The notes under the pieces: model-generated
Seen by the model: only the letters and a program-made list of their open reading frames with translations
Told to the model about the DNA's origin: nothing
The model's database searches: none
Origin: an uncultured Opitutaceae bacterium
GTDB taxonomy: Bacteria; Verrucomicrobiota; Verrucomicrobiia; Opitutales; Opitutaceae
DNA: 64,000 bases
Reading direction: 5' to 3'
Assembly (NCBI GenBank): GCA_937889545.1
Contig: CALAOT010000006.1
Coordinates: forward strand, 1 to 64,000
Position numbers and translations under genes: made by a program
Part shown: positions 40,176-57,441 of the stretch, one piece after another
How positions within the stretch are numbered: the first letter of the stretch is position 1
How the letters are laid out: the number at the start of each line of letters is the position of its first letter

Positions 40176-40203
40176 GGAAGGAGGGGGAAGTCGGGGTTGA
40201 TCA

Positions 40204-40430: not shown

Positions 40431-43400
40431 ATGTCCAAGCGCCTGATCTGGGTATGCGGAGCGTTTCTGGCGGTCGCGATCGCCACGGGCGTCTTTTGGC
40501 TTCGCCGGCCCTCGTCATCGTCCGGCGCGTTCACGCGGCTGATGAATCGCGGCAACGGCCTGCTGGAAAAGGGCGATGCGGCCGTCGCGATCGGCGTCTA
40601 CACCCAGGCTCTCCGGCTCTCGCCGGGGAGCACCGATGTCCGGCTCAACCTGGCCAACGCCTTTCTGCTGGCCGACCGGCCGGACGACGCGGCGCGGATG
40701 TGCCGGCAGACGCTCGAGCTCGATTCCAACAGCGCGGCGGCGTACTACCTGCTGGGCTGCGCGCTTCTCCGGGCGAACCGGCCCGAGCCGGCGGCGGAGG
40801 CCTTCCAACAGTCGTGGAAGATCGAGCCAGCGGTGCCGGCGCTCGATTTCCAGATGGGCATGGCGCAGGAGGAGCTCGGACAGATCCCCGACGCGATCCG
40901 CGATTTCGAGGGCGTGATCCGGGCCGTGCCCGACCATCCGTCGGCGCATTACCAGCTGAGCCGGCTTTACCGGAGGATCGACCGAACCGGCGACGCGGCG
41001 CGCGAGCTGGAGGAGCACCGAAGAATCCAGACCCGCTTGTCCAGCCCGGTCATCACCGTGGCCGCGCTGGAAAGCTGCCAGTACACCCGGCCGCTTTCGC
41101 CGTTCGTCCTGAGCCAGCCGGATCCGCACGGGAATGCGGTCCGTTTCGTGGAGGAGACCGCCGCGGCGTTTGGCGCGCTGGCGACCGGTTGCCGGGGTCC
41201 GCTGGCCGTCATCGATTATGATCACGACGGGCGCCCGAGCATTTTCGCACAGGAGGCGGGCGGCGGTTTTCTCCTGCTCGACGACCGCGGCGGCCATTTC
41301 TCGGCGCTCGGCCGGCCGCTGCCCGCGCCCGCCGGGGCCGGGTACCGCGTCGCCCTGACCGGAGACCTGGACAACGACGGCTTCGACGACGTGGTCGTGC
41401 TCGGCGAGCAGGATTCGCGCGTGTTCAAGTTCTACGCGCACGGCCGGATCCGCGACGCGACCCGCGCGGCGGGGCTCGAGGGACTCAAGGCGAGCGCCGG
41501 CCTTCTGGCCGACCTCGATTTCACCGGGAACCTGGACCTGGTCGTGGTGCAGCCGGGCGGGGCCGGCCTCGGCCTGTACCGCAATCTCGGCAACTTCTAT
41601 TTCGACGGCAACTGGAACGACTCCGGGCTGCCAAGGGCGTTTGCGGGCGCCGCGCAGGTGATGACGGATGACTGGAGCAACGAGGGCCTGCCGGGGGTGT
41701 TCATCGCGCGCGCGGACGCCGCTCCCGTGTTCTATGCGAAAAAGCGCGCGGCGGCGTTCACGGCGAGCAACCTGGCCCAGGGGTGGCCCACCGGGGCGGT
41801 GATGGCCACGGGCGACCTCGGCAACGACCTCCACCCGGAGGCGGTGATCGCGACGGCCACCGCGCTCGAGGTCATCGGTCGCGACCAAAGCCGTAGGGTG
41901 AGCCTGCCGCTCAACGGCTTTCAAGTCTCGGGGCTGCTGCTGGAGGACTACGACAACGACGGCTGGCTCGACCTCTTCGCCTACGGCAGCAGAGGCGTGC
42001 GGGTCTGGCGCAACGCCGGCCACGCCGGATTCACCGACGTGACGAAGGAACTCGGGCTGGACCGCGTCGGCCCGGTTGACGGGATGGTCGCCGCCGACTT
42101 CGGCGGCAACGGGGACATCGACCTGGTGACGAGCTCGGACGCCGGGCTGCGCTTCTGGCGGAACGACGGCGGCAATCGGAACCTGCAGCTGAAGCTGCGC
42201 CTCGCCGGCAACCGCTCCAACACGAGCTCGTTGGGGGTCCGCGTCGAGGTGCTGGCGGGCGACTGGCGCACCAGCCGCACGGTCCGGCGGATTCCGCTGG
42301 AGATCGGGGTCGGGCAGCACCGGCAGCTCGACGCGCTCAAGGTGCACTGGTTCGACCTGTCCACGGCGCAGGTCGACGTGCCGGTCGGGCGGGACGTGCA
42401 TACGGTGACCGAGCCGACGCTCCCGAGCGGCTCCTGCCCATATCTGTACGCGTGGGACGGGCATGCGTTCGCGTTCGTGACGGACATCCTCGGCGCCGCC
42501 CCGCTCGGACTGCCGCAGAACGAGAAACGGTACGTGCCGGCCGACTCGGAGGAGCTGCTGGCGCTCGGCGATGAAACGAGGTTCCCGCCGCGGAACGGCG
42601 CCTACGAAATCCGCATCACCGACGAGCTGCGCGAAGTGCTTTACCTGGACGAGGCCCGGCTTATCGCCGTCGACCACCCGGCAGGCACGGTCGTCCACCC
42701 GACCAGCAAGATGCGCGCCGCCCCGCCGTTCCCGCCGCACGAGCTGTGGACGCTGCGTCCGCTCGCCGCGCCCCGGCAAGCGGTGCGCAGCGACGGCCTC
42801 GACGTGACGGAGGCGCTGGCCCGGGTCGACAACCAGATGGTCTCCCCGGTGCGGCTGCGCCGGCCGCAACTGCGCGGGCTGGCCGAGCCGTTTTCGGTCA
42901 CGCTCGATTTCGGCCCGCTGCCGGTGACGCGTCCATTGGTGCTGGCGCTGACGGGCTGGCTCCATTTCGGCGGCGGGATGGCCAACATCGCCGCGTCGCT
43001 GGATCCGACGCTGCCGTACCCCTTCCCCGTGCTCGAGGCGGAGCTCGCGGACGGAACCTGGCGGAATGTGGACGTCGAGGTCGGAACCCCCGCCGGCAAG
43101 ACCAAGACCATCCTCGTTGACCTGGAGAACAGGCTGCCCTCCGGGACGCAGCGGCTCCGGCTGTCCACCGCCTTCGAGATCTACTGGGATTGCGCGCTGC
43201 TGTGCGAGAAGGCCGGTGCGGCGGACACGCGCGACTACAACCTGCAACCCGAGCGCACCGACCTGCGCTGGCGCGGGTACAGCCGCTTCGCCGACCTGCC
43301 GCCGTCGCTTCCCCTCACGCCGGTCTACGCGGAAGTCTCGCCGACGCCGCCGTGGGACCGGACGCCGGCCGGCTGGTTCACCCGGTACGGCGCGGTGGGG

Positions 43401-43733
43401 GATCTCGTGGCGCGGCGCGACGACCGGCTGGTGCTGCTCGACGGCGGCGATGAACTGGCGCTGTCGTTCGACGCCGCGCGGCTGCCGCCGCCGGCGCCGG
43501 GCATGGCGCGCGACTTTTTCCTGCACGTGGTCGGATGGGACAAGGACGCCGACTTCCACGTGGGACAGGGCTGGCAGCTCGAACCGTTGCCGTTCCAGGG
43601 GATGGACGACCAGGCCTACGGGCGCGAGCCGAGGCCCGGCCGGATCGACGACTCCTGGATCAAGGCGTGCAACACCCGCTGGGTCGGCCCGGTCTTGGTG
43701 AGCCCGGGCGGCAAGGTGCGCCAGACCCCCTGA
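40431..43733 (+). CDS. Membrane-anchored TPR + FG-GAP/VCBS protein
   Basis: A 1100-residue protein. An N-terminal hydrophobic helix (about 3-22) anchors or exports it. TPR repeats fill about 35-210 (LMNRGNGLLEKGDAAVAIGVYTQALRLSP). Next comes a seven-bladed FG-GAP/VCBS propeller with calcium-binding DxDxDG loops (DYDHDGRPS, GDLDNDGFDDVV, DYDNDGWLDLF), then a C-terminal beta region (LYAWDGHAFAFVTDILG) seen in CRTAC1-like proteins. ATG 40431 follows GAGAGGAG directly. It is divergent from the asparagine-synthetase-like gene and opens the long run of exported proteins. Likely a surface adhesion or scaffold protein. Confidence 0.85.
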   Translation: MSKRLIWVCGAFLAVAIATGVFWLRRPSSSSGAFTRLMNRGNGLLEKGDAAVAIGVYTQALRLSPGSTDVRLNLANAFLLADRPDDAARMCRQTLELDSNSAAAYYLLGCALLRANRPEPAAEAFQQSWKIEPAVPALDFQMGMAQEELGQIPDAIRDFEGVIRAVPDHPSAHYQLSRLYRRIDRTGDAARELEEHRRIQTRLSSPVITVAALESCQYTRPLSPFVLSQPDPHGNAVRFVEETAAAFGALATGCRGPLAVIDYDHDGRPSIFAQEAGGGFLLLDDRGGHFSALGRPLPAPAGAGYRVALTGDLDNDGFDDVVVLGEQDSRVFKFYAHGRIRDATRAAGLEGLKASAGLLADLDFTGNLDLVVVQPGGAGLGLYRNLGNFYFDGNWNDSGLPRAFAGAAQVMTDDWSNEGLPGVFIARADAAPVFYAKKRAAAFTASNLAQGWPTGAVMATGDLGNDLHPEAVIATATALEVIGRDQSRRVSLPLNGFQVSGLLLEDYDNDGWLDLFAYGSRGVRVWRNAGHAGFTDVTKELGLDRVGPVDGMVAADFGGNGDIDLVTSSDAGLRFWRNDGGNRNLQLKLRLAGNRSNTSSLGVRVEVLAGDWRTSRTVRRIPLEIGVGQHRQLDALKVHWFDLSTAQVDVPVGRDVHTVTEPTLPSGSCPYLYAWDGHAFAFVTDILGAAPLGLPQNEKRYVPADSEELLALGDETRFPPRNGAYEIRITDELREVLYLDEARLIAVDHPAGTVVHPTSKMRAAPPFPPHELWTLRPLAAPRQAVRSDGLDVTEALARVDNQMVSPVRLRRPQLRGLAEPFSVTLDFGPLPVTRPLVLALTGWLHFGGGMANIAASLDPTLPYPFPVLEAELADGTWRNVDVEVGTPAGKTKTILVDLENRLPSGTQRLRLSTAFEIYWDCALLCEKAGAADTRDYNLQPERTDLRWRGYSRFADLPPSLPLTPVYAEVSPTPPWDRTPAGWFTRYGAVGDLVARRDDRLVLLDGGDELALSFDAARLPPPAPGMARDFFLHVVGWDKDADFHVGQGWQLEPLPFQGMDDQAYGREPRPGRIDDSWIKACNTRWVGPVLVSPGGKVRQTP

Positions 43734-43739: not shown

Positions 43740-46700
43740 ATGCAAGGCGCGACACGTCTCCCCAGGTTCGGCCGGGTGCGGCCTGGGACTCGCTCCGGCG
43801 CGGTGCTGGCCGGGGTGCTGGCGGTGCTTGCCTTCGGCTGCTCCGGGACCCGGGCCGCGGCCGATCCGGGCCCGGCATCCGCCGGCGGCATCGAGGAGCA
43901 GCCGCTCGCCCCGCGATCAGGCCCGCGCGGCAAGACCCTCTTCACGGTCATCCCCCCCGAGGAAAGCGGCGTTCGCACCGAGAACACTTACGACGACCCG
44001 GAGATATGGGGCCGGCTTTCGCGCGAGTTCGACCTCGGGGCGGTCGGCACCGGGGTGGCCATCGGCGACTACGACAACGACGGCCTTCCGGACATCTTTG
44101 TCGTGAGCAAGACCGGGAGCTGCCGGCTCTTTCACAATCTCGGCAACTGGAAGTTCGAGGACGTCACGGAAAAGGCCGGGGTCGGCGACCACGGCGCGGC
44201 CGCCCGGATCTGGAAGCAGGGCGCGACGTTCGTCGACGTGAACAATGACGGGCTGCTGGACATCTACGTCTGCCGGTTCAATGCGCCGAACCTGCTCTAC
44301 ATCAACCAGGGAGACGGCACGTTCAAGGAGGAGGCGCACGCGTACGGGCTCGACGTGACGGACGGCAGCGTCATGGCCTACTTCTACGACTACGATCGCG
44401 ACGGCTGGCTCGATGTCTTCATCCAGACCAATGTGCTCGACGCGGCGGCCCATCCGGAGGGTCAGCGGGACTATCTCTTCCACAACAACCGCAACGGCAC
44501 GTTCACCAACGTGACGGACCGCGCCGGCGTCGTCCCGGGGCGGGCGCACGGGAACTCGGCGGTCTGGTGGGACTTCGATGGCGACGGCTGGCCGGGCCTG
44601 TATGTCGCGAACGACTTCGATGTGCCCGATGCGCTGTACCGCAACAACCGCGACGGCACGTTCACGGATGTCATCGCCCACCTCGTGCCGCACACGCCCT
44701 ATTCGTCGATGGGCTCGGACCTCTGCGACGTGAACAACGACGGCCGGCTCGGCCTGTTCGTCGCGGACATGGCGGCGGCCGACCACGTCGGTGACCAACG
44801 CGCGATGGCGGCATCACGGGCGCGGATGCGCGTTCCCGAGGAAGGCTCGGGGGAAGTCCGCCAGTTTCCCTGCAACGCCCTCTACCTGAACACCGGGGCC
44901 GGCCGGTGCCTGGAGGCGGCGCACCTCGCCGGGTTGGACGCGACCGACTGGACCTGGTCGCCTCTCTGGGAGGACCTGGACAACGACGGGCGGCTCGACC
45001 TGTTTGTCACGAACGGGATGTATCGGGAGATCCACAACCAGGACCTGATCGCGCGCCGGACCATGGCCGGCAGCGTGCTCGCCGGCGGGCAGATCGTGCG
45101 GAACAGCCCGGTGTTCGCCAACAGACACCTCGCGTTCCGCAACCTGGGCGGCCTGCGCTTCGAAAACGTCTCGAGCGCCTGGGGGCTCGACCAGAAGGGG
45201 GTGAGCTTCGGGGCTGCCCTCGGCGACCTCGGCGGCGATGGCAACATGGACCTGGTGTACAGCAATTACCAAGGGGGGGTGACGCTGCTGCGCAACAACG
45301 GCGACACCGGGCACCGGGTCATCTGCGCGCTGCGCGGCACCCGGTCCAACCGGTTCGGCGTCGGGGCGAAGGTGACGCTCGAAAGCGTGGCGGGCATCCA
45401 GGCCCGGTCCCTGACGCTCGGGCGCGGGTTCATGTCGAGCAGCGAGCCGATCGTTCATTTCGGACTGGGAGAGGATGCGTTGATCCGGCGGCTTACGGTG
45501 TCGTGGCCGAGCGGCGCGGTGCAGGCGTTTGAGAACCTTCCTGCTGATCGACGGTTCACGATCACCGAACCCTCGGCGCCGCCGGCGGCGCCGGCGCCGG
45601 CGCCGCCGGCAATCCGGCCTGAGCCCCAGTTCACCGAAACGAGCCAGGGCGCCCATCTATCCTGGACGGCGGCCGAGGACTCCTACGACGAGTTCCTCGA
45701 CCAGCGGCTGCTCCCGGCGGGGTTCAACCGCCGCGGACCGGCGGTCGCCGTGGGCGACCTCGACGGCAGCGGACGCGACGGAGTGTGCATCGGAGGGACC
45801 ACGCGGGAGGCCCGGCGGGTCCTCCTGCCGCAGGGCGCTGAGGCGTGGGCGCCCGCGGCTTCGCCGGCGTTGGCCGCGCCGCCCGCCGTGGATGACGGGC
45901 CGCTCTTGCTGTTCGACGCCACCGGCGAAGGCCGGGCGGACCTGCTCGTCACGGCCGGCGGAGCCAGTCAGCCCGCGGGCGCGCCCGAGTACCAGCCGCG
46001 CCTGTTCCTGAATGACGGGCACGGACAATTCCGGCCGGCGCCGGATGGCACGCTCCCGCCGCTGTCCATCAGCGCCGGCGCGGTCTGCGCCGCCGACTTC
46101 GACCACAGCGGCCGCCTGGGGTTGTTCATCGGGGGGAGGGTCTCGCCCGGACTTTACCCGGCGGCGCCGCAGAGCGCGCTGCTGGCAAGCCGCGGGGGGA
46201 AGTTCGTGGACGTCACCGATGCCGTGGCCCCGATGCTGCGCAACGTCGGCATGGTCACCGCTGCACTCTGGAGCGACGTCGACGGCGACGGCTGGCCGGA
46301 CCTGTTGCTGACGCTCGAATGGGGTCAGGTGAAGTATTTCCACAATGCCGGCGGCAAGAGGTTCGAGGACTGGACGGAGAAGGCGGGCTTCGCCTCGGCG
46401 GGCACGGGCTGGTGGCGGTCGATCGCGACGGCGGACTTCAACGGCGATGGACGCCCCGATTACGTGGTGGGAAACGTGGGCCTGAACACGCAATACCGCG
46501 CCGATCCGGAACATCCTGCGTTGCTCTTCTGCGGTGACTTTGCCGGCCGCGGCTCCGACGAGATCGTCGAGGCGTATTACGAGAACGGCCAGCTGTATCC
46601 GTGGCGCAGCCGCACGGACCTCGGCGCCGCGATTCCTTCCGTGCTCCGGCGCTACCGATGGAACAACGATTACGCCCGCGCGACGCTGCCGGAGATCCTG

Positions 46701-47408
46701 GGAGCCGACCGGCTGGCCGCGGCGACGCGCCTGGCGGCCACGGAACTGCGCAGCGGCGTGTTCCTTAGCCAGCCGGGCGGCCGGTACCGATTCGAGCCCT
46801 TGCCGCTCATCGCGCAGATCGCTCCGGCCGACGGCCTCGTGGCCGGCGATTTCGACGGCGACGGGCACGCCGACATCTACGTCGTGCAGAACTCCTACGC
46901 GCCGGCACCCGCGATCGGCCGTTTCGACGGCGGCTTGAGCCAGCTCCTTCGCGGAGATGGCTACGGCCATTTCGCGCCGGCGCCCCCGATCGAGAGCGGG
47001 CTGGTGGTGCCCGGCGATGCCAAGGCGCTGGCGGTGCTCGACCTCGGCAACGACGGCTGGCCGGGTTTCCTGGTCTCGCGCAACGGAGAAGCGACGCTCG
47101 CATTTCACAACCGGGGCGTAGCGGGCCGGCATTCCCTTCGCGTTGTCCTGCAGGGGCGGCCTGGCAACCCGCAGGCGGTGGGGGCGCGCGTTACGGCGGA
47201 GTACGCCGACGGCGCGACCCAAACGGGCGAAGTCTGCGCCGGCTCCGGCTACTACAGCCAGTCGACTGCGGCCCTATTCTTCGGCTCCACGGAACAGAAT
47301 CCGCTGCGACGCGTGCGTGTTCAATGGCCGTCTGGCGCGACGACGACGAGTCCCGATTGGGGAGGCAGGATTCCAACGACTGTCCGGCTGGTCGCGCCGG
47401 AACCTTGA
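43740..47408 (+). CDS. Giant CRTAC1-like lipoprotein with two FG-GAP/UnbV halves
   Basis: A 1222-residue protein starting 7 bp after the previous gene. A signal peptide leads to a probable lipobox (LAFGC). The first half (about 60-611) is an FG-GAP propeller ending with an ASPIC/UnbV domain (GTRSNRFGVGAKVTLES, HFGLGEDALIRRLTVSWPSG). A Pro/Ala linker (about 612-625) joins a second propeller plus UnbV half (LQGRPGNPQAVGARVTAEY, RRVRVQWPSG). Both halves carry many calcium-type DxDxDG loops. The doubled build suggests internal duplication or fusion. Function of the family is unknown; the surface location is inferred. Confidence 0.87.
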   Translation: MQGATRLPRFGRVRPGTRSGAVLAGVLAVLAFGCSGTRAAADPGPASAGGIEEQPLAPRSGPRGKTLFTVIPPEESGVRTENTYDDPEIWGRLSREFDLGAVGTGVAIGDYDNDGLPDIFVVSKTGSCRLFHNLGNWKFEDVTEKAGVGDHGAAARIWKQGATFVDVNNDGLLDIYVCRFNAPNLLYINQGDGTFKEEAHAYGLDVTDGSVMAYFYDYDRDGWLDVFIQTNVLDAAAHPEGQRDYLFHNNRNGTFTNVTDRAGVVPGRAHGNSAVWWDFDGDGWPGLYVANDFDVPDALYRNNRDGTFTDVIAHLVPHTPYSSMGSDLCDVNNDGRLGLFVADMAAADHVGDQRAMAASRARMRVPEEGSGEVRQFPCNALYLNTGAGRCLEAAHLAGLDATDWTWSPLWEDLDNDGRLDLFVTNGMYREIHNQDLIARRTMAGSVLAGGQIVRNSPVFANRHLAFRNLGGLRFENVSSAWGLDQKGVSFGAALGDLGGDGNMDLVYSNYQGGVTLLRNNGDTGHRVICALRGTRSNRFGVGAKVTLESVAGIQARSLTLGRGFMSSSEPIVHFGLGEDALIRRLTVSWPSGAVQAFENLPADRRFTITEPSAPPAAPAPAPPAIRPEPQFTETSQGAHLSWTAAEDSYDEFLDQRLLPAGFNRRGPAVAVGDLDGSGRDGVCIGGTTREARRVLLPQGAEAWAPAASPALAAPPAVDDGPLLLFDATGEGRADLLVTAGGASQPAGAPEYQPRLFLNDGHGQFRPAPDGTLPPLSISAGAVCAADFDHSGRLGLFIGGRVSPGLYPAAPQSALLASRGGKFVDVTDAVAPMLRNVGMVTAALWSDVDGDGWPDLLLTLEWGQVKYFHNAGGKRFEDWTEKAGFASAGTGWWRSIATADFNGDGRPDYVVGNVGLNTQYRADPEHPALLFCGDFAGRGSDEIVEAYYENGQLYPWRSRTDLGAAIPSVLRRYRWNNDYARATLPEILGADRLAAATRLAATELRSGVFLSQPGGRYRFEPLPLIAQIAPADGLVAGDFDGDGHADIYVVQNSYAPAPAIGRFDGGLSQLLRGDGYGHFAPAPPIESGLVVPGDAKALAVLDLGNDGWPGFLVSRNGEATLAFHNRGVAGRHSLRVVLQGRPGNPQAVGARVTAEYADGATQTGEVCAGSGYYSQSTAALFFGSTEQNPLRRVRVQWPSGATTTSPDWGGRIPTTVRLVAPEP
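45575..45610 (+). repeat. GCC/GGC-rich repeat encoding a Pro/Ala linker
   Basis: A run of GCGCCG/GCCGGC units codes for the Pro/Ala linker between the two halves of the giant FG-GAP protein. It is nearly self-complementary and could form hairpins. Confidence 0.7.
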
Positions 47409-47748: not shown

Positions 47749-49467
47749 ATGAAACCGACGAAACGGGACACCGGATTCAAGGCTCACGGACGCTTCGCGC
47801 TGCTGGTGCTGCTCGCGCTGACACTGGCGGCATGCAAGCCGCAGTCCTACGAGCCGGCGAGCGACGCCGCTCGGCCGCCGTCCTTCTCCGTTACTCCTCC
47901 GATCCCCGCCGACCCCAATGACCTATTCGAGGACGCCACCGCCAAGGCGAAGATTGATTTCGTCCAGCAGTTTTGCGACGACCGCATCGCCAACATCCTG
48001 GAATCCAATGGCTCGGGCGTGGTCGTCTTCGACTACGACAACGACGGGTACATGGACCTCTACTTCGTCAACCCGGGTCCGCTGCCGGGTGTGACCCACG
48101 AGCCGCCGGGAACCCGGCGCCAGCCCAATCGGCTCTTCCACAACAATGGGGACGGCACGTTCACCGACGTGACGGAGAAGGCCGGAGTCGGCGGCGCAGG
48201 GTTCGGCATTGGGGCCGCGGCGGCCGATTACGACGGCGACGGCTGGACGGACCTTTATGTCGTCAACGCCGGCAAGAACATCCTCTACCACAACAACGGG
48301 GACGGCACGTTCACCGACGTGACCGACAAGGCCGGAGTGGGCTACCCGGGGACGGGCATCGGCGCCACCTGGCTGGATGTCAACAACAGCGGCCGGCTGG
48401 ACCTGTACGTGGGCAACTACCTGAGTTACGACCCGGACTATCATCTCTACTACAACCCGACCAGCTATCCCGGTCCGCTGGCATATAAGCCGGAGCGGGA
48501 CGTGCTCTATCTCAACAACGGCGACGGGACCTTCACCAACGCCAGTGAGTCGGCGGGCATCTGGGCGCTGCCTCCGCATCGGACGATGTCCGTGCATGCG
48601 CTGGACTACAACCGGGACGGCCATGAGGACCTCTATATCTGCAACGACGCGACGCCGAACATGCTGCTCATCAACGACGGCCACGGGCATTTTCACGACG
48701 AAGCCATGAAGCTGGGCGTCGCGTTCAACGCCCTGGGCGAGGCGGCAGGCTCGATGACCGCCGCCATCGGCGACTGCGATGGCGATCAGATCCCGGACAT
48801 CCTGGTCTCGCGCCTGGGATATGGCTCACTGTACATGGGCACGAAGCAGGGCGACTTCGTTGATCGCATGATGGCCTCGGGAATCGGCGTGCTGACGGCG
48901 CAGTATGTCGGGTGGGGGTCCAACTTCATCGATTTCGACAACGCCGGGAAACTGGACGTCTTCATCGCCAACGGTGATCCCTTCCGGATGGTGGGCTGGC
49001 AAAGCCTACTGCTGGAGAACGATGGTCACGGCAATTTTCGCAATGCGGTGGACAAGGGCGGCGCCTATTTCCGAACGCCGGTCCGGGCGCGCCCGAGCGT
49101 CGTGCTGGATTATGACAACGACGGCCGGATGGACCTGCTGGTGGGCCTGATGGGGGACCGGCCGGTCCTGCTTCACAACCGCGACCGCTCAGGCAACCAC
49201 TGGATCACCCTGGCGCTGCGCGGAACCAAGAGCAACCCTGCGGGCTGGGGATCGTTCATCGAGCTGATGGCGGGAGGGAAGACCTACGTCCAGGAAAGCC
49301 GCTGCCCCTCGGCATTCCTGAGCCAAGGGGATCCGCGAGTCCACTTCGGGCTCGGCCAGGCGCCGATCGTGCAGCGGATCCAGATCAAGTGGCCGAGCGG
49401 CACGGTCCAGACGCTGACCGACGTCCGGGTCGACCAGATCCTCAAGGTGACCGAGCCACGATCCTGA
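47749..49467 (+). CDS. CRTAC1-like FG-GAP/UnbV lipoprotein
   Basis: A 572-residue protein with a signal peptide ending in a lipobox (LTLAAC). One FG-GAP propeller with repeated FDYDNDGYMDLY and DYDGDGWTDLYV loops is followed by a C-terminal ASPIC/UnbV domain (GTKSNPAGWGSFIEL, VHFGLGQAPIVQRIQIKWPSG). It is the compact, standard form of the protein doubled at 43740. Its stop overlaps the next start (TGATG). Relatives occur widely in Verrucomicrobiota, Planctomycetota and Acidobacteriota with no known function. Confidence 0.9.
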   Translation: MKPTKRDTGFKAHGRFALLVLLALTLAACKPQSYEPASDAARPPSFSVTPPIPADPNDLFEDATAKAKIDFVQQFCDDRIANILESNGSGVVVFDYDNDGYMDLYFVNPGPLPGVTHEPPGTRRQPNRLFHNNGDGTFTDVTEKAGVGGAGFGIGAAAADYDGDGWTDLYVVNAGKNILYHNNGDGTFTDVTDKAGVGYPGTGIGATWLDVNNSGRLDLYVGNYLSYDPDYHLYYNPTSYPGPLAYKPERDVLYLNNGDGTFTNASESAGIWALPPHRTMSVHALDYNRDGHEDLYICNDATPNMLLINDGHGHFHDEAMKLGVAFNALGEAAGSMTAAIGDCDGDQIPDILVSRLGYGSLYMGTKQGDFVDRMMASGIGVLTAQYVGWGSNFIDFDNAGKLDVFIANGDPFRMVGWQSLLLENDGHGNFRNAVDKGGAYFRTPVRARPSVVLDYDNDGRMDLLVGLMGDRPVLLHNRDRSGNHWITLALRGTKSNPAGWGSFIELMAGGKTYVQESRCPSAFLSQGDPRVHFGLGQAPIVQRIQIKWPSGTVQTLTDVRVDQILKVTEPRS

Positions 49468-50927
49468 TGAGTTCGCGCACGAGCGTGTTGTCTGGAGCGG
49501 CGGCATTCCTGCTGGCTGGCTGCAATCCGGCGGCGCCGGAAGGCTCCCTGGCCCTGACGCAGACGCCCGTGGGTGTCCCTCCTCCACCGGCCGCCACGGT
49601 GCTGGATGTCCTTTACCCGCCGGGAAGCCGGGTGGTCTTGCTGGCTCCCCCGTTTCGCACGGACACGGTTCGCGAGCTTTCCGGCGGGCTGGTCGCCGCC
49701 GGTGATCCCTGCGTTTCATGGGACGGCCGCTGGGTCTACTTCGCCGGCAAGAGCTCGGACGGAGCCGACTGGCAGATCTACAAGGTCGATGCGGGCGGCG
49801 GTCGGGCCCAGCTCGTGACCGAGATGCCTGGCGGGGCGATGGATCCCGCCATTGCGGCCCATGATGAGCTGGTTTTCAGCTCCCCCGTACCAAAAGGGGG
49901 CCGGCTCTGGACCACCCCGACGCCGGCCGCGCTCTACGGGCAGATGCCGGGCCAGGCGCCCCGCCGGCTCACATTCGGCCCGGACAGCGCCGTCGGCGCC
50001 ACCGTCCTGCGCGATGGACGGGTCCTCTTCGTGACCGCCGAGGCCCGTGACGACCGCCACGCTCCGCGGCATCTGTGCCTCTTCACGATCAACAACGACG
50101 GCACCGAGGTCACCGCCTATGCCTGCCAGGAGGACGGGGTGGACTATGTCCGGCGCCCGCGCGAGCTGGGCGACGGCCGGGTCGCCTTTATCGCCGCTCG
50201 CGTGGAGAAACCGGGACCCACGGGCTGGGCGGAGTGCGTGAGATCGGCCGCTCCGTTCGCAACGCGCAGCAACCTGTTCGCATTCCGGAGCGTCGGCTGC
50301 CGCTCCGTGGAGCCGATGCAGGGAAACGACGTGCTGGCCTGTGTCGATACAACCGGCTGGGCCGGGCGTTCGATGGTGGGCAACGCGGCGGTTTATCGCG
50401 TCGCGGCCGACGCCGCCGCGATCGGCGCTCCGCTCTTTGACGACCCGCAATGGGACAGCATCGAAGCCACCCCTGTCGCAGCGCGGGCCGAACCCGCCGG
50501 ACACACGTCCGTTGTGATGCCGGGAGCGCCCCACGGCACGCTGTTGTGCCTCAACGTCAACGACGGCAGCGAGCCGGCGGCCGACCGGAACCCGGCTCCC
50601 GCCGCCGAGCTTCGGGTCTTTGCGTTGGTGGGTTCGGGGCAGCAGCGCACCGTGGGAAAGGTGCCGGTGGATTCCGACGGTTCCGTGATCGTGCAGCTTC
50701 CCGTGGACGTGCCCCTGGGCCTCGACACCCTCGACGCCCAGGGACGGATACTCCGGCATCAGCCGGCGTTTCTTTGGCTCCGGCCCGGAGAGAACCGCGC
50801 ATGCGTCGGCTGCCACGAGTCGCGCAACCACGCGCCCCGAAACGTCCGCCCTCTGGCGACGATGCACAAACCGGAGCACCTGGAGTTCACCGAACAAACG
50901 GCCGCCCCCCGCGCCGCCGCCCCATGA
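49467..50927 (+). CDS. Lipoprotein of the hydrazine-synthase-alpha-like family with one CxxCH
   Basis: A 486-residue protein with a lipobox (FLLAGC). A WD40-like propeller (about 40-330) is followed by a beta domain matching the family named after hydrazine synthase alpha: VGKVPVDSDGSVIVQLP, then LWLRPGENRACVGCHESRN with one haem-type CxxCH (Cys 446 to His 450). The family is spread far beyond anammox bacteria, so hydrazine synthesis is not implied. Start and stop overlap the neighbours by 1 and 4 bases, so it is translated with them. It probably binds one c-type haem and passes electrons in the periplasm. Confidence 0.85.
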   Translation: MSSRTSVLSGAAAFLLAGCNPAAPEGSLALTQTPVGVPPPPAATVLDVLYPPGSRVVLLAPPFRTDTVRELSGGLVAAGDPCVSWDGRWVYFAGKSSDGADWQIYKVDAGGGRAQLVTEMPGGAMDPAIAAHDELVFSSPVPKGGRLWTTPTPAALYGQMPGQAPRRLTFGPDSAVGATVLRDGRVLFVTAEARDDRHAPRHLCLFTINNDGTEVTAYACQEDGVDYVRRPRELGDGRVAFIAARVEKPGPTGWAECVRSAAPFATRSNLFAFRSVGCRSVEPMQGNDVLACVDTTGWAGRSMVGNAAVYRVAADAAAIGAPLFDDPQWDSIEATPVAARAEPAGHTSVVMPGAPHGTLLCLNVNDGSEPAADRNPAPAAELRVFALVGSGQQRTVGKVPVDSDGSVIVQLPVDVPLGLDTLDAQGRILRHQPAFLWLRPGENRACVGCHESRNHAPRNVRPLATMHKPEHLEFTEQTAAPRAAAP

Positions 50928-52897
50928 AGCTGAAACGAATCATCCTGTTCGGGACGCCGCTGGTGCTGGCGGGGGCCGGGGCCGCAACGGGCGGACACTT
51001 CGCGGCGCGCACGCACGAGCGCCGGATGTCGGGCTTGCCCCATCTCAATGTCGTCTCCTGCAACCATTGCCACCAAAGCAGCCTGAGCAGGTTGCCCTGG
51101 GCGAAGCCCCGCCCGCACCATGACGCGCCAGGCGGGATCGTCGTTTCCCCGGACGGGAAGACGTTGTTCATCGCCTTGGATGACAGGGACGAGGTGGCCG
51201 AGGCCGACGTGGCTTCGCTCGCGGTGACCCGCCGGGCGAAGGTCCCGGGCGGGCCGTTCGGCTTGGCGCTGGACGCGACGGGAAAACACCTGTTTGCGGC
51301 TTGCCGGCATCAGGACCGGATCGCGGTGCTCGATACGCGCGACCTCAGGGAGGAGGCCAGCATCGCAGTCGGCATTCGCCCGACCGACGTCGCGTATTGC
51401 CAGACTCCGGCCGGGGAGCGGTTGATTGTCCCCAACTCCGGCAGCGACGACATCTCCGTGCTTTCGGTCACGCCGCTGCGCGAGTTGACCCGGCCGGCGG
51501 CGGGCCGCGAGCCGTATGCCGTAGCGGTGTCCGGCGACGGCGGGCGCGTTTACATCGCCAATCGATTGGCGGTCCACGACCAGATCCTCAGTCAGCCTGC
51601 CTCCGAGGTGACGGTCCTCGACCCGGCCAATGGGCACGTCCTCGACCGCGAAGCGCTTCATTCGGCCCACTTGGCGGAAGGCATCGCCGACGTGCCCACG
51701 CGGGGGTGGGTGCTGAATTCGATGGTCCGGGTTCGCAATCTGGTCCCGATCACACAAGTGAAGGATGGGTGGGTCATGTCCACCGGCGTGGCGATCTCCC
51801 AGAAGGGTGGCGAGGTGACGCAGATCCCGCTGGATGAGGCGAACGCCTATTTTCCCGATCCCTCGGGCGTCGTGGCCAGCCCCGATGGAAGGCGGGCCTA
51901 CGTGGCGTCCGGGGGCGCCGACGTGGTGACGGTCCTCGACCTCGACCGGTTGGGCGCGTGGCTGACCCAGGCCGGTGAAGCGGAGCGGAGCGACGCCAGC
52001 GAGAACATGGCGCTGTCCTACCGTTACGTGGCCGCCCGGATCCCGACCGGCTGCAACCCCCAGCATCTGGCGCTTTCCCCGGACGGCCGCCGGCTGTTCG
52101 TGGCCGAACGACTCGAGGACCGGGTGCTCGTTGTGGACACAACCAGCCTCAAGCCGGTTGGCCGGATCGTGTTGGGTGACGGCGGGCTGGACGACCCCGT
52201 CCGTCTGGGTGAGCGGGTCTTCACGCGGGCGCGCTACACGTTTCAAGGGCAATTCTCCTGTCGCTCGTGCCACCCGGACGGCCAGATGGACGGGCTCTCC
52301 TATGATTTCGACGGAGCCGGGGTTGGCGATAATCTGCTGGCCAACCGAACCCTGTGCGGCGTGGCCGGCACGGAACCGTTCAAGTGGAACGGGAAGAACC
52401 CCACGTTGCAGTTCCAGGACGGCCCGCGGTTTGCGCGGGTGCTGATGCGGACCGACCCGATCCCCCAGCCGCAGCTGGACCAGCTGGCGACGTTTATCAA
52501 ACATCTCCCGCCGACGCGCATGATCCCGTGGAGCCGAGTGGGCCAGCCGCTCACGCCCGCCGAGGAACGCGGGCGCAAGCTCTTCTTCGCGACGCGGCGA
52601 ACCGACGGCACGCCGATTCCCCGGGCGCTCCAGTGCCAGACGTGCCATCGGCCCCCGCTGTTCACGGATCGGCTGATGACCTCGGTGGGCACGCAAGGTG
52701 CCCGCGATTCGTCGGGCGTGTTTGACACGCCGCACCTGATCGGGGTCGGCGCCATGGCCCCCTATCTGCACGATGGCCGGGCGCGGACGCTGGAGGAGAT
52801 CTGGACCACCTATCAGAAGGACGATCTGCACGGCGTCAGCAGCTACTGGTCCAAGGAGCAACTGAACGACCTGGTCGAGTTCCTCAAAACGATCTAA
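50924..52897 (+). CDS. Propeller-cytochrome c peroxidase/MauG-like triheme protein
   Basis: A 657-residue exported protein with three CxxCH sites: CNHCH (about 46-50), CRSCH (about 446-450) and CQTCH (about 571-575). The middle is a YVTN-type propeller (GIVVSPDGKTLFIALDDRDEV, GPFGLALDATGKHLFAACR); the C-terminal 220 residues resemble the dihaem cytochrome c peroxidase/MauG region (FKWNGKNPTLQFQDGPRF, GRKLFFATRR, FDTPHLIGVGAMAPYLHDGR). It should oxidise a small molecule or protein partner or act as an electron relay. Its start overlaps the previous stop (ATGA). The partner is likely the upstream CxxCH lipoprotein. Confidence 0.88.
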   Translation: MKLKRIILFGTPLVLAGAGAATGGHFAARTHERRMSGLPHLNVVSCNHCHQSSLSRLPWAKPRPHHDAPGGIVVSPDGKTLFIALDDRDEVAEADVASLAVTRRAKVPGGPFGLALDATGKHLFAACRHQDRIAVLDTRDLREEASIAVGIRPTDVAYCQTPAGERLIVPNSGSDDISVLSVTPLRELTRPAAGREPYAVAVSGDGGRVYIANRLAVHDQILSQPASEVTVLDPANGHVLDREALHSAHLAEGIADVPTRGWVLNSMVRVRNLVPITQVKDGWVMSTGVAISQKGGEVTQIPLDEANAYFPDPSGVVASPDGRRAYVASGGADVVTVLDLDRLGAWLTQAGEAERSDASENMALSYRYVAARIPTGCNPQHLALSPDGRRLFVAERLEDRVLVVDTTSLKPVGRIVLGDGGLDDPVRLGERVFTRARYTFQGQFSCRSCHPDGQMDGLSYDFDGAGVGDNLLANRTLCGVAGTEPFKWNGKNPTLQFQDGPRFARVLMRTDPIPQPQLDQLATFIKHLPPTRMIPWSRVGQPLTPAEERGRKLFFATRRTDGTPIPRALQCQTCHRPPLFTDRLMTSVGTQGARDSSGVFDTPHLIGVGAMAPYLHDGRARTLEEIWTTYQKDDLHGVSSYWSKEQLNDLVEFLKTI

Positions 52898-52906
52898 GCG
52901 CCCACC

Positions 52907-54091
52907 ATGAAAACCCAACTCACTCCGTCAATTCGCGTCATCGCCGGTATTGTATCCATCCTTTCGCTACTCCCGTGGGCCTGCGCATCCGCGCGGGCTG
53001 CGACAACGCCCGCGGAAACAACCGGCCTTCCGTTTCCCGTTGTGACGCGGTTCGAGAACTTCGGCGAAAAGGATGGCCTCCCGTCGCACAAGGTGCATTG
53101 CGTCTTAAAAACCAAGGACGGCAAACTGTGGCTCGGCACTACTAACGGACTGTGTGTGCGCGAACCGGACGGAAAATTCCGGCGTTACGGACCGGAGGAT
53201 GGGCTGAGCCATCCGGTGGTGCTGAGCATGGCCGAGGACCCCGGCACCGGCGACTTGTGGCTCGCGACCATGCAGGGACTGACCCGCCTCAGCGGGGGAA
53301 GGTTCACCGTCTTCACGCAGACCAACAGCGGCCTGCCCAACAACGTCGTCTACGGGGTAGCAGTTATGGACGACACGGTCTGGGCCGCGACGCCCGCCGG
53401 CGCAGGCGCATACCATATCAAAACCAAGAGTTGGACCATGTACGACCAGAACAACGCGGACATGGAAGAACCCTGGTGCTACGCCATCGCCCCGGGCGAC
53501 GGAGTAGTCTACATCGGCGTCTGGGCCGGCGGCATTGTGGAGCACGATCCACGGACCGGCAGCTTCAAGGCCTATCGCGATCCCGACGGTGATTTTCAGT
53601 TCCAGCTGACCCCCGACAGCGGGCCCATAGCCGACATCACCTCTTGGGTTGCGTACCAGGACGGCATTCTCTGGCAGTCCACCTACTTCGGGCTTTCCCG
53701 GTATGACACGAAGGAGGCGACGTGGCGGACGTGGGTCCAGGACAAGACGCCTTTGGCCTCCAACTTCATAAACACCGTCTTTGCCCGTGGCCGCGTCGCC
53801 TGGGTCGCCACCGACCGCGGCGTATCCGTCACCGACGGCAACGACTGGGTCAACTATCTCGTCGATGGGAACGGCCGGGGCGTGGTCCGGACTTATCGGC
53901 CTGGACAGGAACCCCAGACCCGCACCATGACGACGGCGTTGGCGGACGGCTTTGTGTTGGGCGTCTGGGCCGACGACCACGAAGCCTGGTTTGCCACCTC
54001 CAATGGTTTGAGCCACGGCATCTTCGACGTGCCGACCGCATCAACGGCCGCCACGGCGACCACCTCACCGACCGTCGCGTCAAATCTCTAG
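52907..54091 (+). CDS. Secreted seven-bladed propeller (two-component-regulator type)
   Basis: A 394-residue protein with a signal peptide (IVSILSLLPWACASARA) and a propeller of the type used as sensor in hybrid two-component proteins: FENFGEKDGLPSHKVHCVL, KLWLGTTNGLCVREPDGKF, DLWLATMQGLTRLSGGRF, VWAATPAGAGAYH. No kinase or membrane domain is attached. It starts 9 bp after the cytochrome gene. As a free propeller it may bind a ligand or another protein of this run. Confidence 0.85.
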   Translation: MKTQLTPSIRVIAGIVSILSLLPWACASARAATTPAETTGLPFPVVTRFENFGEKDGLPSHKVHCVLKTKDGKLWLGTTNGLCVREPDGKFRRYGPEDGLSHPVVLSMAEDPGTGDLWLATMQGLTRLSGGRFTVFTQTNSGLPNNVVYGVAVMDDTVWAATPAGAGAYHIKTKSWTMYDQNNADMEEPWCYAIAPGDGVVYIGVWAGGIVEHDPRTGSFKAYRDPDGDFQFQLTPDSGPIADITSWVAYQDGILWQSTYFGLSRYDTKEATWRTWVQDKTPLASNFINTVFARGRVAWVATDRGVSVTDGNDWVNYLVDGNGRGVVRTYRPGQEPQTRTMTTALADGFVLGVWADDHEAWFATSNGLSHGIFDVPTASTAATATTSPTVASNL

Positions 54092-54117
54092 GACGGTTCA
54101 TCCTTTAGGAGGCTCTC

Positions 54118-55503
54118 ATGAAGATCTTCGAATTCTGTCTGATGGTTCTTATCGCCGCCGCGCCCGCTGGCGCCGCTTCTGTCGACGCCGCCAAGGGAGA
54201 GATCCCCGTCGCCCCGACTGCGACGCCTCTGGAGGTCCGATCGTCGGAGGCCGCCCCGGCGGCGTCCCGTTTCATCTTCGGCACGCCCGACGAGCAGTAT
54301 CCGTACTACGCTGGGGTACCCAAGGAACTCTGGCCTTACCGCAATACCGAGCCTTACGTGAAATTCTTTGTCACCCGCATGCCCTTCCGCGGTCCCGGCC
54401 GGGATTACCCGCCTCCACCCGACCTGAAATCACTTAAGATCGGCCTGCTCGATTCCCCGAAGTACGGTCCCAATTGGGACCGCAGCGTGCGCCAGCGGGA
54501 GGGCATTATCCTGGCGGTTGAAGAGGCAAACCACGCGTGCCAGCCGGGCCAACTCCCCTTTGAACTCATTGAACGGGAAGGCATCGCCCAATGGGGCGGC
54601 GCCGCCAACCTAACGGCGGAGTTCGCCGACCAAGGCGTGCTCGGGTTCATGGGCACGGTCGACGGGGGCGAAGCCCACGTCGCGCTGCGCGTCACCCTTA
54701 AGACCGAAGTCGTCATGGTCAACACCTCGGATCCGGACCCGACCTTGACCGAAACGAGCATTCCCTGGCTTCTCCGGGTCCTTCCCGATCATCGAGTAGA
54801 AGAAGCGAGGCTGGCCGAGCTGATCGTGCACAAGTTCGGCTGCAAGCGCATTGCCATCCTGCGCGCGGGTGACCGCTTTGGACGCCTCGGGGTACACACG
54901 TTCATGAATTTCGCCCGCCGTCTGGGCTGCCCTGCGGTGCAGGAACTGCTCTTCAAACCCGGCGGAACCGACATTCCCCACCAGATTGCCGCGATCAAGG
55001 ACTCCCAACCGGACGCGATCTTCTTCGTCGGCGAGCCGGACGATGTCGGCCGTTTTGCCAAACAATTCCGCCAGGCCGGCATCCAGGCCCGGTTCTTCGG
55101 CACCGACCTTCTGATGGAGGATAGCTTCCTGCGGGAAGCCGGCGACGCTGCGGAGGGCACGATGATCACGTGCCTCTTTGATCCCGCCCGCCAGGACCCC
55201 CTCTGGGTCAGCTTCGTGGCTCGATTCCGGGAGCGCTGGGGTCACGAGCCTGACGCCTATGCCGCCTACGCTTACGACGGCGCCCAGATCATGATCCACG
55301 CCATTCAAAGCGCGGGCCCGAATCGCTGGCGCGTCCGGGACCAGGTGTGCAACCTGGACTATTATCAAGGCGTCACCGGCTGGATGCAGTTTGACGGCAC
55401 CGGTAGCAATATCGCACCGGTGCGGCTCGTGCGGTTTGATCACGGGCGCCGCGTCTTCGAACCGGAACCGGAATTCTCGCCTTCTGCCGCCCAACGCCTC
55501 TAG
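54118..55503 (+). CDS. Type-1 periplasmic binding protein (branched-chain amino acid ABC type)
   Basis: A 461-residue exported protein. After a signal peptide and a 90-residue linker, the LivJ-type fold starts at LKIGLLDSPKYGPNWDRSVRQREGI and runs through GVLGFMGTVDGGEAHVALRV, FGCKRIAILRAGDRFGRLGV and DAIFFVGEPDDVGRFAKQF to AYAAYAYDGAQIMIHAI. Such proteins capture amino acids, amides or aromatic acids, or serve as receptors. No ABC permease or ATPase gene is present. A second protein of the same fold follows after 13 bp. The ligand is unknown. Confidence 0.87.
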   Translation: MKIFEFCLMVLIAAAPAGAASVDAAKGEIPVAPTATPLEVRSSEAAPAASRFIFGTPDEQYPYYAGVPKELWPYRNTEPYVKFFVTRMPFRGPGRDYPPPPDLKSLKIGLLDSPKYGPNWDRSVRQREGIILAVEEANHACQPGQLPFELIEREGIAQWGGAANLTAEFADQGVLGFMGTVDGGEAHVALRVTLKTEVVMVNTSDPDPTLTETSIPWLLRVLPDHRVEEARLAELIVHKFGCKRIAILRAGDRFGRLGVHTFMNFARRLGCPAVQELLFKPGGTDIPHQIAAIKDSQPDAIFFVGEPDDVGRFAKQFRQAGIQARFFGTDLLMEDSFLREAGDAAEGTMITCLFDPARQDPLWVSFVARFRERWGHEPDAYAAYAYDGAQIMIHAIQSAGPNRWRVRDQVCNLDYYQGVTGWMQFDGTGSNIAPVRLVRFDHGRRVFEPEPEFSPSAAQRL

Positions 55504-55516
55504 CCCGACAAAGCCC

Positions 55517-56620
55517 ATGCAAGTCGGATTGCGCTGCCCGCTCGCTTGGCTGCTCCTCGCCCCGTTTGCCGGCGGCGCCGGTGCGCCCCAGGTGACGCTG
55601 GGGCTCGTGGCGCCGCCGTCCGAACCGGATGCGACCAGTCTGCTGCGCGGCGTGCAACTGGCTGTCGCCGAGACAAACGAAACCGGCGACGCGCCAGTCG
55701 GGCTTGAAGTGCGAAGCGAGGACGGCCAGTGGGGGACTGTCGGCAACGATGCGGTGGCGCTGGTCTCCAACCGCCACGTGGACGCGATCATCACCCCGTC
55801 CGACGGCGCCGCCAGCCATCTCATCCTGCAAGTTTCCGGCCGCACCCGGGTGCCGGTGGCAAGCCTCTGCCCGGATTCGTCGGTCACGGAAGCCGGCGTG
55901 CCTTGGACCGTGCGCGTGGTGCCGCGCACCGATCAGGAGGCCAAGGCGCTGTTCGCCGCCACGCGGCGACCGGACCGTCCCCCTCTCCATTGGTGGGCGG
56001 TCGTTCCGGCGGGACGGCCGGGACGTGCGGTCCGCCGCGATCTTGAAACGGCAGCCCGCTTGACCGTAGCCCTGCTGGACCGGATCGTCGAGGGCGGCGA
56101 GCCGAAGACGGACCTCGCCTCCCTGGTTCGCACGATCGTCGTGGCCGCTCCGGACGGCGTGCTCCTTTGGCTGCGGCCTTCGCGGGCCGGAACGGTTGCC
56201 GCGGCGCTGCGGGCCGCGGGCTATGGCGGTTGCGTGGCCGGGCCGAGCCCGCTTGATTCTCCGGCATTCGTCGCCGCCGCGGGCGCCGCCGCGACCGGAG
56301 TACTGGTGACGGAGTTTCGGGAAGACGCCGGTCTACGCGCGCGAGCGGACCAGTTCGAGAGGCAGTATCGGCAGAGATATGACGCCAAACCGGACTTCAG
56401 CGCGGCGGCGGCGCATGATGCCGCGCAGGTGCTGATCGAGGCCCTTCGTCGCGCCGGGGATGGCGGCGGCTATCGCCAGTTTCCCCTTGCCCTCCCCACC
56501 GCGGGCGTCACCGGAGTTCTCCATTTCGACAGTTCCGGCAACCGAACGGATGCGCTGCAGGTGCTTACCTGCCAGGAAGGCCGGTTCGTTCCCATTCCCC
56601 CCACCGACACATTACCATGA
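55517..56620 (+). CDS. Second type-1 periplasmic binding protein
   Basis: A 367-residue exported protein: signal peptide (CPLAWLLLAPFAGGAG), then VTLGLVAPPSEPDATSLLRGVQLAVAE, DAIITPSDGAASHLILQVSG, GVPWTVRVVPRTDQEAKAL and AAAAHDAAQVLIEALRRAG. It is shorter and more diverged than its neighbour and has lost some loops around the ligand pocket. Its stop overlaps the next start (ATGA). The pair may form a heterodimeric sensor, or one may have lost binding. Confidence 0.82.
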   Translation: MQVGLRCPLAWLLLAPFAGGAGAPQVTLGLVAPPSEPDATSLLRGVQLAVAETNETGDAPVGLEVRSEDGQWGTVGNDAVALVSNRHVDAIITPSDGAASHLILQVSGRTRVPVASLCPDSSVTEAGVPWTVRVVPRTDQEAKALFAATRRPDRPPLHWWAVVPAGRPGRAVRRDLETAARLTVALLDRIVEGGEPKTDLASLVRTIVVAAPDGVLLWLRPSRAGTVAAALRAAGYGGCVAGPSPLDSPAFVAAAGAAATGVLVTEFREDAGLRARADQFERQYRQRYDAKPDFSAAAAHDAAQVLIEALRRAGDGGGYRQFPLALPTAGVTGVLHFDSSGNRTDALQVLTCQEGRFVPIPPTDTLP

Positions 56621-57255
56621 AGGCTCCAAATCGGGTCGCGCTGCCGACCGCAGTGTCTCTTGTCGCCCTGCTGATTGTCCTCGCCCTGGCCACCCTGGGC
56701 GCCGGCCCCAGCTCGGCGACCAGCCCCGGCGACGCCCCGGCGCTGCCCCCGCCGTCCAACGGGGCCATCAGCCCGCAGGATCAGGCTGACGCCTTGCACC
56801 TCGTCATCGCGGCGGACCGAGAGATCTATTGCCGGATGTACGTGGCGCTGCAGGCCGGAGCCGCTCCATCACCGAACGCCTCCGCCGGCGGAAAGCCGGG
56901 TGAAACGCGGCCGTCGCCGTGCGGGATGTTTCGGCGCGCTTCCGAGTTGATTCAGAGCAGAGGGGCGGAGTTCAGCTACGCCCTGCGCTCCCTTCGTCCG
57001 ATCGACCAGCGAAACGGACCCCAGACCGAACTGGAGCAGCGCGGGCTGGCTTTCGTCGCAAGCCACCCCACCCAGAGCTACTATGGCCAGGAGATGCTGG
57101 GAGGCCGGCGATACCTTACCGCCGTCTATCCGGACATCCCGGCGGTCGCCGCCTGCGTTGAATGCCACAATCGGGGATCGGCACCGATCCCGCAACGCTA
57201 CCAGGTCGGCGAGGTCATGGGTGGCATCGTGGTGCGCGTGCCGCTCGAGTTTTGA
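56617..57255 (+). CDS. Tll0287-like (DUF3365) c-type haem domain protein
   Basis: A 212-residue protein with an N-terminal membrane helix (SLVALLIVLALATLGAG). It resembles the Tll0287-like/DUF3365 domain, a PAS-like fold that binds one haem c: ALRSLRPIDQRNGPQTELEQ, then AVYPDIPAVAACVECHNRG with CxxCH (about 180-184), and a final VGEVMGGIVVRVPLEF. In other proteins this domain is the periplasmic sensor of kinases or chemoreceptors; here it stands alone. It overlaps the binding-protein gene by 4 bases and closes the run. Confidence 0.82.
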   Translation: MKAPNRVALPTAVSLVALLIVLALATLGAGPSSATSPGDAPALPPPSNGAISPQDQADALHLVIAADREIYCRMYVALQAGAAPSPNASAGGKPGETRPSPCGMFRRASELIQSRGAEFSYALRSLRPIDQRNGPQTELEQRGLAFVASHPTQSYYGQEMLGGRRYLTAVYPDIPAVAACVECHNRGSAPIPQRYQVGEVMGGIVVRVPLEF

Positions 57256-57276: not shown

Positions 57277-57441
57277 CATCGATCGACGTCGCATGGCCCG
57301 GCGGCACGCGGAGCACGCACCCGTTCCAGCCGGGCGCGTCCCGGATCGTCCTGCGGAAGGGCCCCTGAGCCCGGCCGGCGGATTCCGGTTGTAAGGCTGG
57401 GGGATTAGGCCACGGTGGCCTCGCTCTCAACCGGGCCGAAT

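Follow-up and report, generated by a model that had tools for sequence, protein, structure and literature searches.

What is encoded by the seven closely packed plus-strand genes found at positions 47749-57255 of a 64,000-nucleotide stretch from an uncultured Opitutaceae bacterium (bases 1-64000 of contig 6 of a 4.33 Mb assembly, hereafter the window)? An original prediction, made from the letters alone, took them for an undescribed module outside the cytoplasm in which the capture of a small molecule is coupled to electron transfer or redox sensing. We refer to the seven genes as C to I, and to two FG-GAP genes upstream of them as A and B. Our analysis shows that D and E are homologous to all three subunits of hydrazine synthase (HZS), where D corresponds to alpha and E to a beta-gamma fusion. 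Moreover, with a single exception, every testable locus links the two to each other, to a propeller (F) and to one or more LIV-type solute-binding domains. We hold the composition of the module and its HZS kinship with high confidence; its function is addressed more tentatively below.

The kinship follows from several types of search. D scores 79 bits with the HZS alpha model (cut-off 800) and also hits PF18582, and E matches the HZS beta-gamma fusion model NF052342 at 159 bits (cut-off 1250) as well as the separate beta and gamma models; D and E therefore represent an HZS-like alpha/beta-gamma pair. A search of the PDB leads from D to 5c2v_A and from E to both 5c2v_B (1.4e-32) and 5c2v_C (5.1e-14). 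With family profiles built from diverse relatives the values are 9.5e-69 over 453 positions for D against 5c2v_A, and for E 3.7e-69 to HZS beta (5c2v_B) and 3e-37 to gamma (5c2v_C). The structure model of D (mean predicted local distance difference test of 88) yields 5c2v_A and 5c2v_D as the two best Foldseek matches with a TM-score by query of 0.75-0.77, whereas the next match, TolB, scores 0.47. The module thus shares with the solved HZS (5C2V) the alpha haem domain, the di-haem gamma domain and the beta propeller, and alpha is homologous over the first 577 chain residues. The families originally assigned to the other genes (FG-GAP/UnbV, two type-1 binding proteins, Tll0287-like) and the HzsA-like nature of D were read correctly, but E was called a propeller/peroxidase-like cytochrome and the presence of all three HZS subunits in D and E was overlooked.

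To what extent do these genes belong together? The E family was scanned in 84,980 species genomes, 97 relatives were confirmed and the best 80 loci were taken, so that all counts on these loci are conditional on E. Neighbours were counted with profiles over all frames, based on matched positions on the same strand with at least 60 bits and within fixed distance limits. By record title or NCBI rank the 80 loci span at least eight phyla (Verrucomicrobiota, Acidobacteriota, Planctomycetota, Elusimicrobiota, Latescibacterota, Poribacteria, Marinimicrobia/Fidelibacterota, KSB1 and a "Deltaproteobacteria" record ranked Myxococcota). D lies upstream of E in 61 of the 62 loci with 3.5 kb of upstream sequence available, L096 being the exception. 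F lies downstream of E in 69 of 72 loci with 1.3 kb downstream, and as the three misses are fusions of F with a solute-binding protein (SBP), the actual count is 72 out of 72. Upstream of E, 43 of the 54 loci with at least 5 kb on that side have an FG-GAP gene of the C or B type. Separate SBP genes downstream of E number two in 39, one in five and zero in nine of the 53 loci with at least 6 kb downstream. Eight of these nine carry an SBP fused to F; in the ninth (L123) F continues into what resembles the start of an SBP, followed by a masked stretch. The expectation that the genes travel together is hence borne out for D and F in particular.

Since the linkage counts depend on loci found by the E pattern, even draws of genomes were added. 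E at 1e-60 or better is present in four of 387 Verrucomicrobiota genomes, and these four also hold the top D scores (at least 265 bits); the next-best alpha-domain proteins reach 227 bits at most, in frames of 669-1713 residues. In the window, as in the stretches obtained from the three remaining E-positive genomes (L043, L044 and L046), D, C and E are clustered together. Within Opitutaceae, E is present at 1e-40 or better in 10 of 100 genomes, eight of which have the module type. The other two (G126 and G510; 30-31% identity) show no full-length D match beside E; L048 has an alpha-domain match of 129 residues. One of three other genomes drawn from the genus of the window has the module E. Overall, the module is sporadic, yet coherent where E is of the close type.

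Trees were based on 79 (E, at least 500 residues), 68 (D, at least 350) and 72 (F, at least 250) of 81 rows. Their distances correlate with r = 0.89 for E-D (67 rows), 0.71 for E-F (70) and 0.62 for D-F (63), and none of 999 permutations gave a value as high. In the E tree the window belongs to starred groups of 33 and 37 rows, most of which carry three haem motifs and show the order C-D-E; L086, L087, L088 and L093 have the same haem count and order but are located in the other half of the tree. For the alignments 31 of the 80 loci were chosen: A2 is without L092 and L106 (partial), A4 contains 25 of 27 loci (without L083 and L126) and A5 is without L089 and L094. At L042 and L069, E of one relative is open in two separate frames, possibly due to a frameshift or an assembly error.

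The most direct link between ligand capture and the remainder of the module comes from natural fusions. F and an SBP domain form one open frame in 17 of the 80 loci, namely L076, L087, L088, L093 and 13 of the 15 rows of a Planctomycetota group in which D and E are present but a C-type gene is not (the remaining two being L120, which ends inside F, and the masked L123). On the 79-protein E tree the fused state, which was scored in 67 of 79 rows, requires at least three changes. This repeated fusion is the strongest evidence here that propeller and SBP act together, and because of it ligand capture and haem proteins plausibly form one device. The redox/ligand device originally proposed is thus supported in part, by co-occurrence and fusion; its last member, the Tll0287-like gene I, proves to be an accessory that is found in only 16 of the 80 loci.

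G has the LIV-type fold (Foldseek TMt of 0.80-0.84 for the top three matches) of the LivJ/LivK proteins that serve LIV-type ATP-binding cassette (ABC) transporters. It differs from these by its long N-terminal extension, by the fusion of SBP and propeller in the 17 loci and by its surroundings: as had been predicted, Pfam annotation of the nine genes A to I (the rest of the genome was not searched) reveals no permease or ATPase family in the run. A role of the SBPs solely as importer parts is disfavoured by the fusions and by the missing permease. We refrain from naming a ligand for G, as the solved structures nearby bind solutes as varied as leucine, other amino acids, urea or aromatic acids.

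A second line of evidence concerns the haems of E. The number of CxxCH motifs in E is 2, 3, 6 or 10 over the loci, that is 0, 1, 4 or 8 beyond the two of the gamma domain. Up to seven changes in haem number are counted on the E tree, which is an upper figure given that L055 and L077 are cut at a contig edge and were scored as two-haem. Nine loci have an intact two-haem E, and in six of them (L092, L096, L104, L106, L112 and L114) the cluster contains a c554-type multihaem gene; it was not seen at L094, L109 and L124, each with only 0.8-2.6 kb available downstream. The c554 copy of L114 aligns with the N-terminal domain that is fused to E in the ten-haem loci (173 bits). Because the c554 domain is either fused to E or encoded separately in the cluster, E probably exchanges electrons.

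Differences to true HZS become pronounced at the level of single residues. In the alpha relatives the alphaI CxxCH is kept in 68 of 68 sequences and is followed by Glu in 66. The second alpha haem (alphaII) motif is missing: D has one CxxCH, against two in all ten long anammox alpha frames (which were chosen by this count and by length). Ser590-Tyr591, of which Tyr591 is a ligand of haem alphaI in HZS, is deleted in all 68 alpha relatives, the window included, whereas 10 of 10 anammox alpha chains have it. At Cys303, a Zn-ligand site, 23 of the 68 relatives have His and the window has Glu; among the anammox chains, only 7 of 10 have Cys there. Both CxxCH motifs of the gamma domain are present, but gamma His144 of HZS is Trp in 79 of 79 relatives; it is His in the two fused anammox proteins aligned, and an FRHEG motif occurs in 10 anammox frames. 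At the third haem link site, gamma Cys165, only Cys (62 rows), Asp (11) and Glu (6) are found. An acidic residue in this column (position 499 of E) could form an ester-type haem link. The beta region around K-N-L-V-P..G-W is kept, with P275 and G282 in 79 of 79. Given the replacement of HZS ligand and active-site residues, the module is not a hydrazine synthase. The results for Tyr591, Cys303 and His144 agree with those in the available text of PMC12758564, whereas the extra Cys at the Cys165 site is found here well beyond the ten-haem group, unlike what is stated there.

The loci differ as well. The HzsB cut-off of 560 bits is exceeded in 21 of 372 Planctomycetota genomes, with best matches of 632-766, while five tested Planctomycetota genomes with relatives score 196 bits at most against the beta model. 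For comparison we took the surroundings of true HzsB genes in 11 genomes, in twelve regions of 10.4-20 kb (L191 and L192 originate from one genome). These regions contain HZS genes. F, the SBPs, C (CRTAC1), B and I (Tll0287) have no match in any of the twelve, although L200, L201 and L202 end near the HZS gene on one side and are weaker tests; the c554 gene was not sought in these regions. The A profile has two matches (143 and 131 bits), which may be due to its TPR part. In another set of searches, PF13447 (HAO/HDH family) matched none of 11 genomes, but none of 14 control genomes either. Beta and gamma are fused in two anammox loci as well (L199 and L202). Nonetheless, compared to anammox HZS the gene order of the module is reversed, alpha is shortened, and the partners F, G and H are not seen at the true HZS loci.

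The outline of the arrangement is already in print. According to the part of the text available, Haegglund et al. (PMC12758564, December 2025) distinguish clades I-IV of co-located alpha and fused beta-gamma HZS homologues, where clade III has an FG-GAP gene upstream of alpha, no haem alphaII, a beta-gamma protein with one extra haem and two SBP genes downstream. Our locus fits this description in every testable point (gene order, FG-GAP, extra haem, no alphaII, two SBPs), the match being one to the description rather than to a tree with their sequences. The word 'undescribed' in the original prediction is therefore no longer appropriate. As far as the available text goes, no ABC-transporter genes were identified near clade IV; in the group that presumably corresponds to it here, an SBP domain is fused to the propeller. 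That same text contains no mention of a Reg_prop propeller or of the F-SBP fusion, and in the main text, to the extent available, the words 'two-component', 'regulator' and 'Tll0287' are absent.

An earlier paper (PMC10732223, 2023) reports, in its available text, hzsABC-like genes in metagenome-assembled genomes (MAGs) of Phycisphaerae, which were proposed as possible anammox bacteria. As in our module, alpha is located directly upstream of a fused beta-gamma gene. Seven MAGs named there (OFTM5, 174, 250, 285, 286, 321 and 371) are among the 80 loci. Six of these show the F-SBP fusion (L110, L111, L113, L115, L116 and L127), while the sequence of the remaining one (L120) stops within F; all seven have Trp in place of gamma His144, unlike anammox HZS. 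Searching the open-licence literature for a propeller together with hydrazine synthase returned no paper. As far as this search goes, the constant propeller, its repeated fusion with an SBP, the free-standing c554 gene and the absence of F/SBP partners at the true HZS loci are new.

What could such a set of proteins do? Given that the residues of HZS chemistry are replaced and that a solute-binding/propeller unit is added, we favour a periplasmic oxidoreductase that acts on a captured solute. In this reading the products of C to H would form a periplasmic or cell-surface complex, a multihaem oxidoreductase on an HZS-type core with its own ligand-capture subunit, and we judge the chances of this to be even. 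For HZS itself, the available text of PMC12607021 proposes that a cytochrome partner delivers electrons to haem gammaII, that gammaI reduces nitric oxide and that the product reaches haem alphaI via a tunnel. In the module, the SBP-propeller unit would capture a small solute and dock on the haem core. Electrons would then pass between a cytochrome partner, the haem(s) at the N-terminus and the outer gamma-like haem, and reach a haem site of the CCP/MauG type in which the distal Trp and Gln are retained. Across the beta loop, the alpha-like haem would complete the chemistry or take a share in it, in analogy to the HZS proposal. Protein I, the Tll0287-like haem protein of this genome, may act as an additional carrier of electrons or as a redox switch. 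A two-site core is likely, because the relatives keep both haem domains as well as the beta region; to the mechanism as outlined we assign slightly less than an even chance.

The alternative that survives best, though in our opinion unlikely, is a maturation device in the style of MauG/MbnH, where D would serve as a scaffold while the di-haem domain of E would oxidise side chains in another protein of the cluster, be it the propeller, CRTAC1 or an SBP. The gamma-like domain of E indeed also matches the CCP_MauG and MbnH/MauG models, and shares with bacterial di-haem cytochrome c peroxidases (bCcP) and MauG two c-haem motifs together with a conserved Trp and Gln. Besides the invariant Trp, the site that we take to be the Gln of the CCP/MauG distal motif is Gln in 79 of 79 relatives, against Val in both aligned anammox fusion proteins. 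That the Trp at the gamma His144 site corresponds to a CCP/MauG position is stated in the available text of PMC12758564. Unlike in these enzymes, however, the domain shares its chain with an HZS-type propeller and is accompanied by an HZS-alpha protein; conservation extends to the HZS-like beta region and to the alpha-like protein, whose own haem motif is invariant. Moreover, N-terminal c554 domains with up to eight haem motifs would suggest a sustained electron flow instead of a single turnover.

Less probable still is a redox- or ligand-sensing device, where the SBPs and the Reg_prop propeller would recognise a solute and the redox state would be reported by the haem proteins. In its favour, the PDB entries related to F belong to two-component sensors (4a2l, 3v9f and 3ott, with 2.2e-54 for the F profile against 4a2l), and this version of the module includes a Tll0287-like haem protein. 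Nonetheless, Pfam detects no kinase, transducer or regulator among the nine annotated genes or among five recurrent neighbour proteins, and an HZS-like enzyme core would seem costly for a sensor. We give little credence to a bolder reading, in which the clusters would represent a second, widespread class of HZS-type enzymes. These would join or transform the SBP-delivered solute with a reactive intermediate from the gamma-like haem in a periplasmic chemistry not recognised so far (possibly N-N, C-N or N-O bond formation), and the clusters would also be the ancestral setting from which anammox HZS arose through loss of the SBP-propeller unit and gain of Tyr591 and His144. A surface complex for extracellular electron transfer with structural SBP-like parts appears improbable: several lipoproteins (by eye), multihaem domains and propellers would suit it, but the Pfam annotation of the run holds no porin or outer-membrane conduit family and the LIV-type SBP fold is kept. 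Finally, a genuine hydrazine synthase in a non-anammox bacterium is very improbable and was rejected on residues and cut-offs, for although all three subunits are represented and adjacent, every NCBIfam equivalog cut-off is missed by far (79.2 against 800, 159.2 against 1250, 125.1 against 560 and 62.9 against 625 bits), the beta scores of the five Planctomycetota genomes lie well apart from those of the 21 and the Ser590, Tyr591 and His144 changes are without exception.

Several points weigh against the oxidoreductase complex that we prefer. The wider E family is not always part of such a module: of 132 genomes in the order, 11 others encode E-like proteins with 25-31% identity, and an adjoining alpha-domain match was seen for G111 alone. 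The linkage counts are conditional on E, by whose pattern the loci were found, and the correlations between trees partly reflect the shared history of the host species. Fusion and linkage demonstrate association, not electron coupling, and the SBPs can serve a permease that is encoded elsewhere in the genome. In addition, the E of the window itself is without the extra haem-binding Cys (Asp499 at the Cys165 site), and no biochemical data on any member were found.

The positions in Table 1 confirm the seven plus-strand genes, along with the predicted start/stop overlaps (TGATG at 49465-49469, ATGA at 50924 and 56617). Successive genes from C to I are spaced by -1, -4, 9, 26, 13 and -4 bases, while B and C are 340 bases apart. 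As the gaps in the run only vary from -4 to 26 bases, C to I could conceivably be transcribed as a single unit. The count of five CxxCH motifs (one in D, three in E and one in I) was correct. By eye, the N-termini show lipoboxes in B, C and D and signal peptides or anchors in the remaining proteins, so that an export signal was seen on all seven.

Table 1. Genes of the module (C to I) and its two upstream neighbours (A and B) in the window
Gene	Position	Strand	Product	Family or domain	Remarks
A	40431..43733	+	TPR and FG-GAP protein, membrane-anchored by eye	Pfam TPR, FG-GAP_3	lineage-specific neighbour, doubtful member
B	43740..47408	+	double FG-GAP/UnbV lipoprotein		multicopy Opitutaceae family, doubtful member
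C	47749..49467	+	CRTAC1-type FG-GAP/UnbV lipoprotein	Pfam	
D	49467..50927	+	HZS alpha-like lipoprotein	PF18582 (HZS_alpha)	486 residues; one c-haem motif CVGCH, residues 446-450
E	50924..52897	+	HZS beta-gamma fusion-like	CCP_MauG and propeller	c-haem motifs CNHCH, CRSCH, CQTCH
F	52907..54091	+	exported Reg_prop beta-propeller	Pfam Reg_prop	
G	54118..55503	+	LIV-type solute-binding protein 1	Peripla_BP_6	N-terminal extension of ~100 residues
H	55517..56620	+	LIV-type solute-binding protein 2	Peripla_BP_6	
I	56617..57255	+	Tll0287-like	PF11845	one c-haem motif CVECH

The suggestion that the two upstream FG-GAP genes may belong to the module does not hold. An A-B pair precedes it in 6 of the 80 loci (L049, L050, L053, L054, L056 and L090), all with Opitutaceae or Opitutia titles, which are also the nearest named relatives of the window. 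Single B-type genes are found at L066, L068 and L079 as well. B is multicopy, with at least six copies in this genome; 23 of 100 Opitutaceae genomes have B at 1e-150, many of them in several copies, but only eight of these 23 have a module-type E. A and B were consequently rejected as core members and are at most accessory, given the six loci and the multicopy nature of B. Directly downstream of the run, at 57415-57927, lies a gene for an Hcp-type tube protein of the type VI secretion system; it was rejected as part of the module, having one match overall in a set that includes the window itself.

Compared to the window, A and B of L043, L045 and L046 are ~70-76% identical, whereas the adjoining C to H are only ~23-45% identical and their E falls in another group of the tree. 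The module core appears to have been exchanged at a fixed locus among these Opitutaceae genomes. Upstream of the run, an asparagine-synthase-like frame (38856-40328, minus strand) is overlapped by a radical-SAM-like CxxxCxxC frame (37882-39396, minus strand), both read by eye. Two other neighbours recur elsewhere. A frame of 856 residues without Pfam match lies near the D-E-F cluster in L121 (11249-13816, minus strand) and eight other Planctomycetota loci, and a membrane protein (by eye) of ~160 residues follows the SBP genes in L065, L066, L067, L068, L071 and L072, with no confident Pfam family in the two copies scanned.

According to the available text of PMC12758564, HZS was long regarded as lacking recognisable relatives, and where it came from is an open question. 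The relatives studied here now gain a defined composition of alpha, beta-gamma, propeller and solute-binding protein, the last two of which are not seen at true HZS loci. The natural fusions predict a physical interaction between F and G. Furthermore, the residue-level markers separate HZS from its relatives and can guard against calling such genomes 'anammox'. Summarizing, the gene set points to a widespread relative of hydrazine synthase with a different job.

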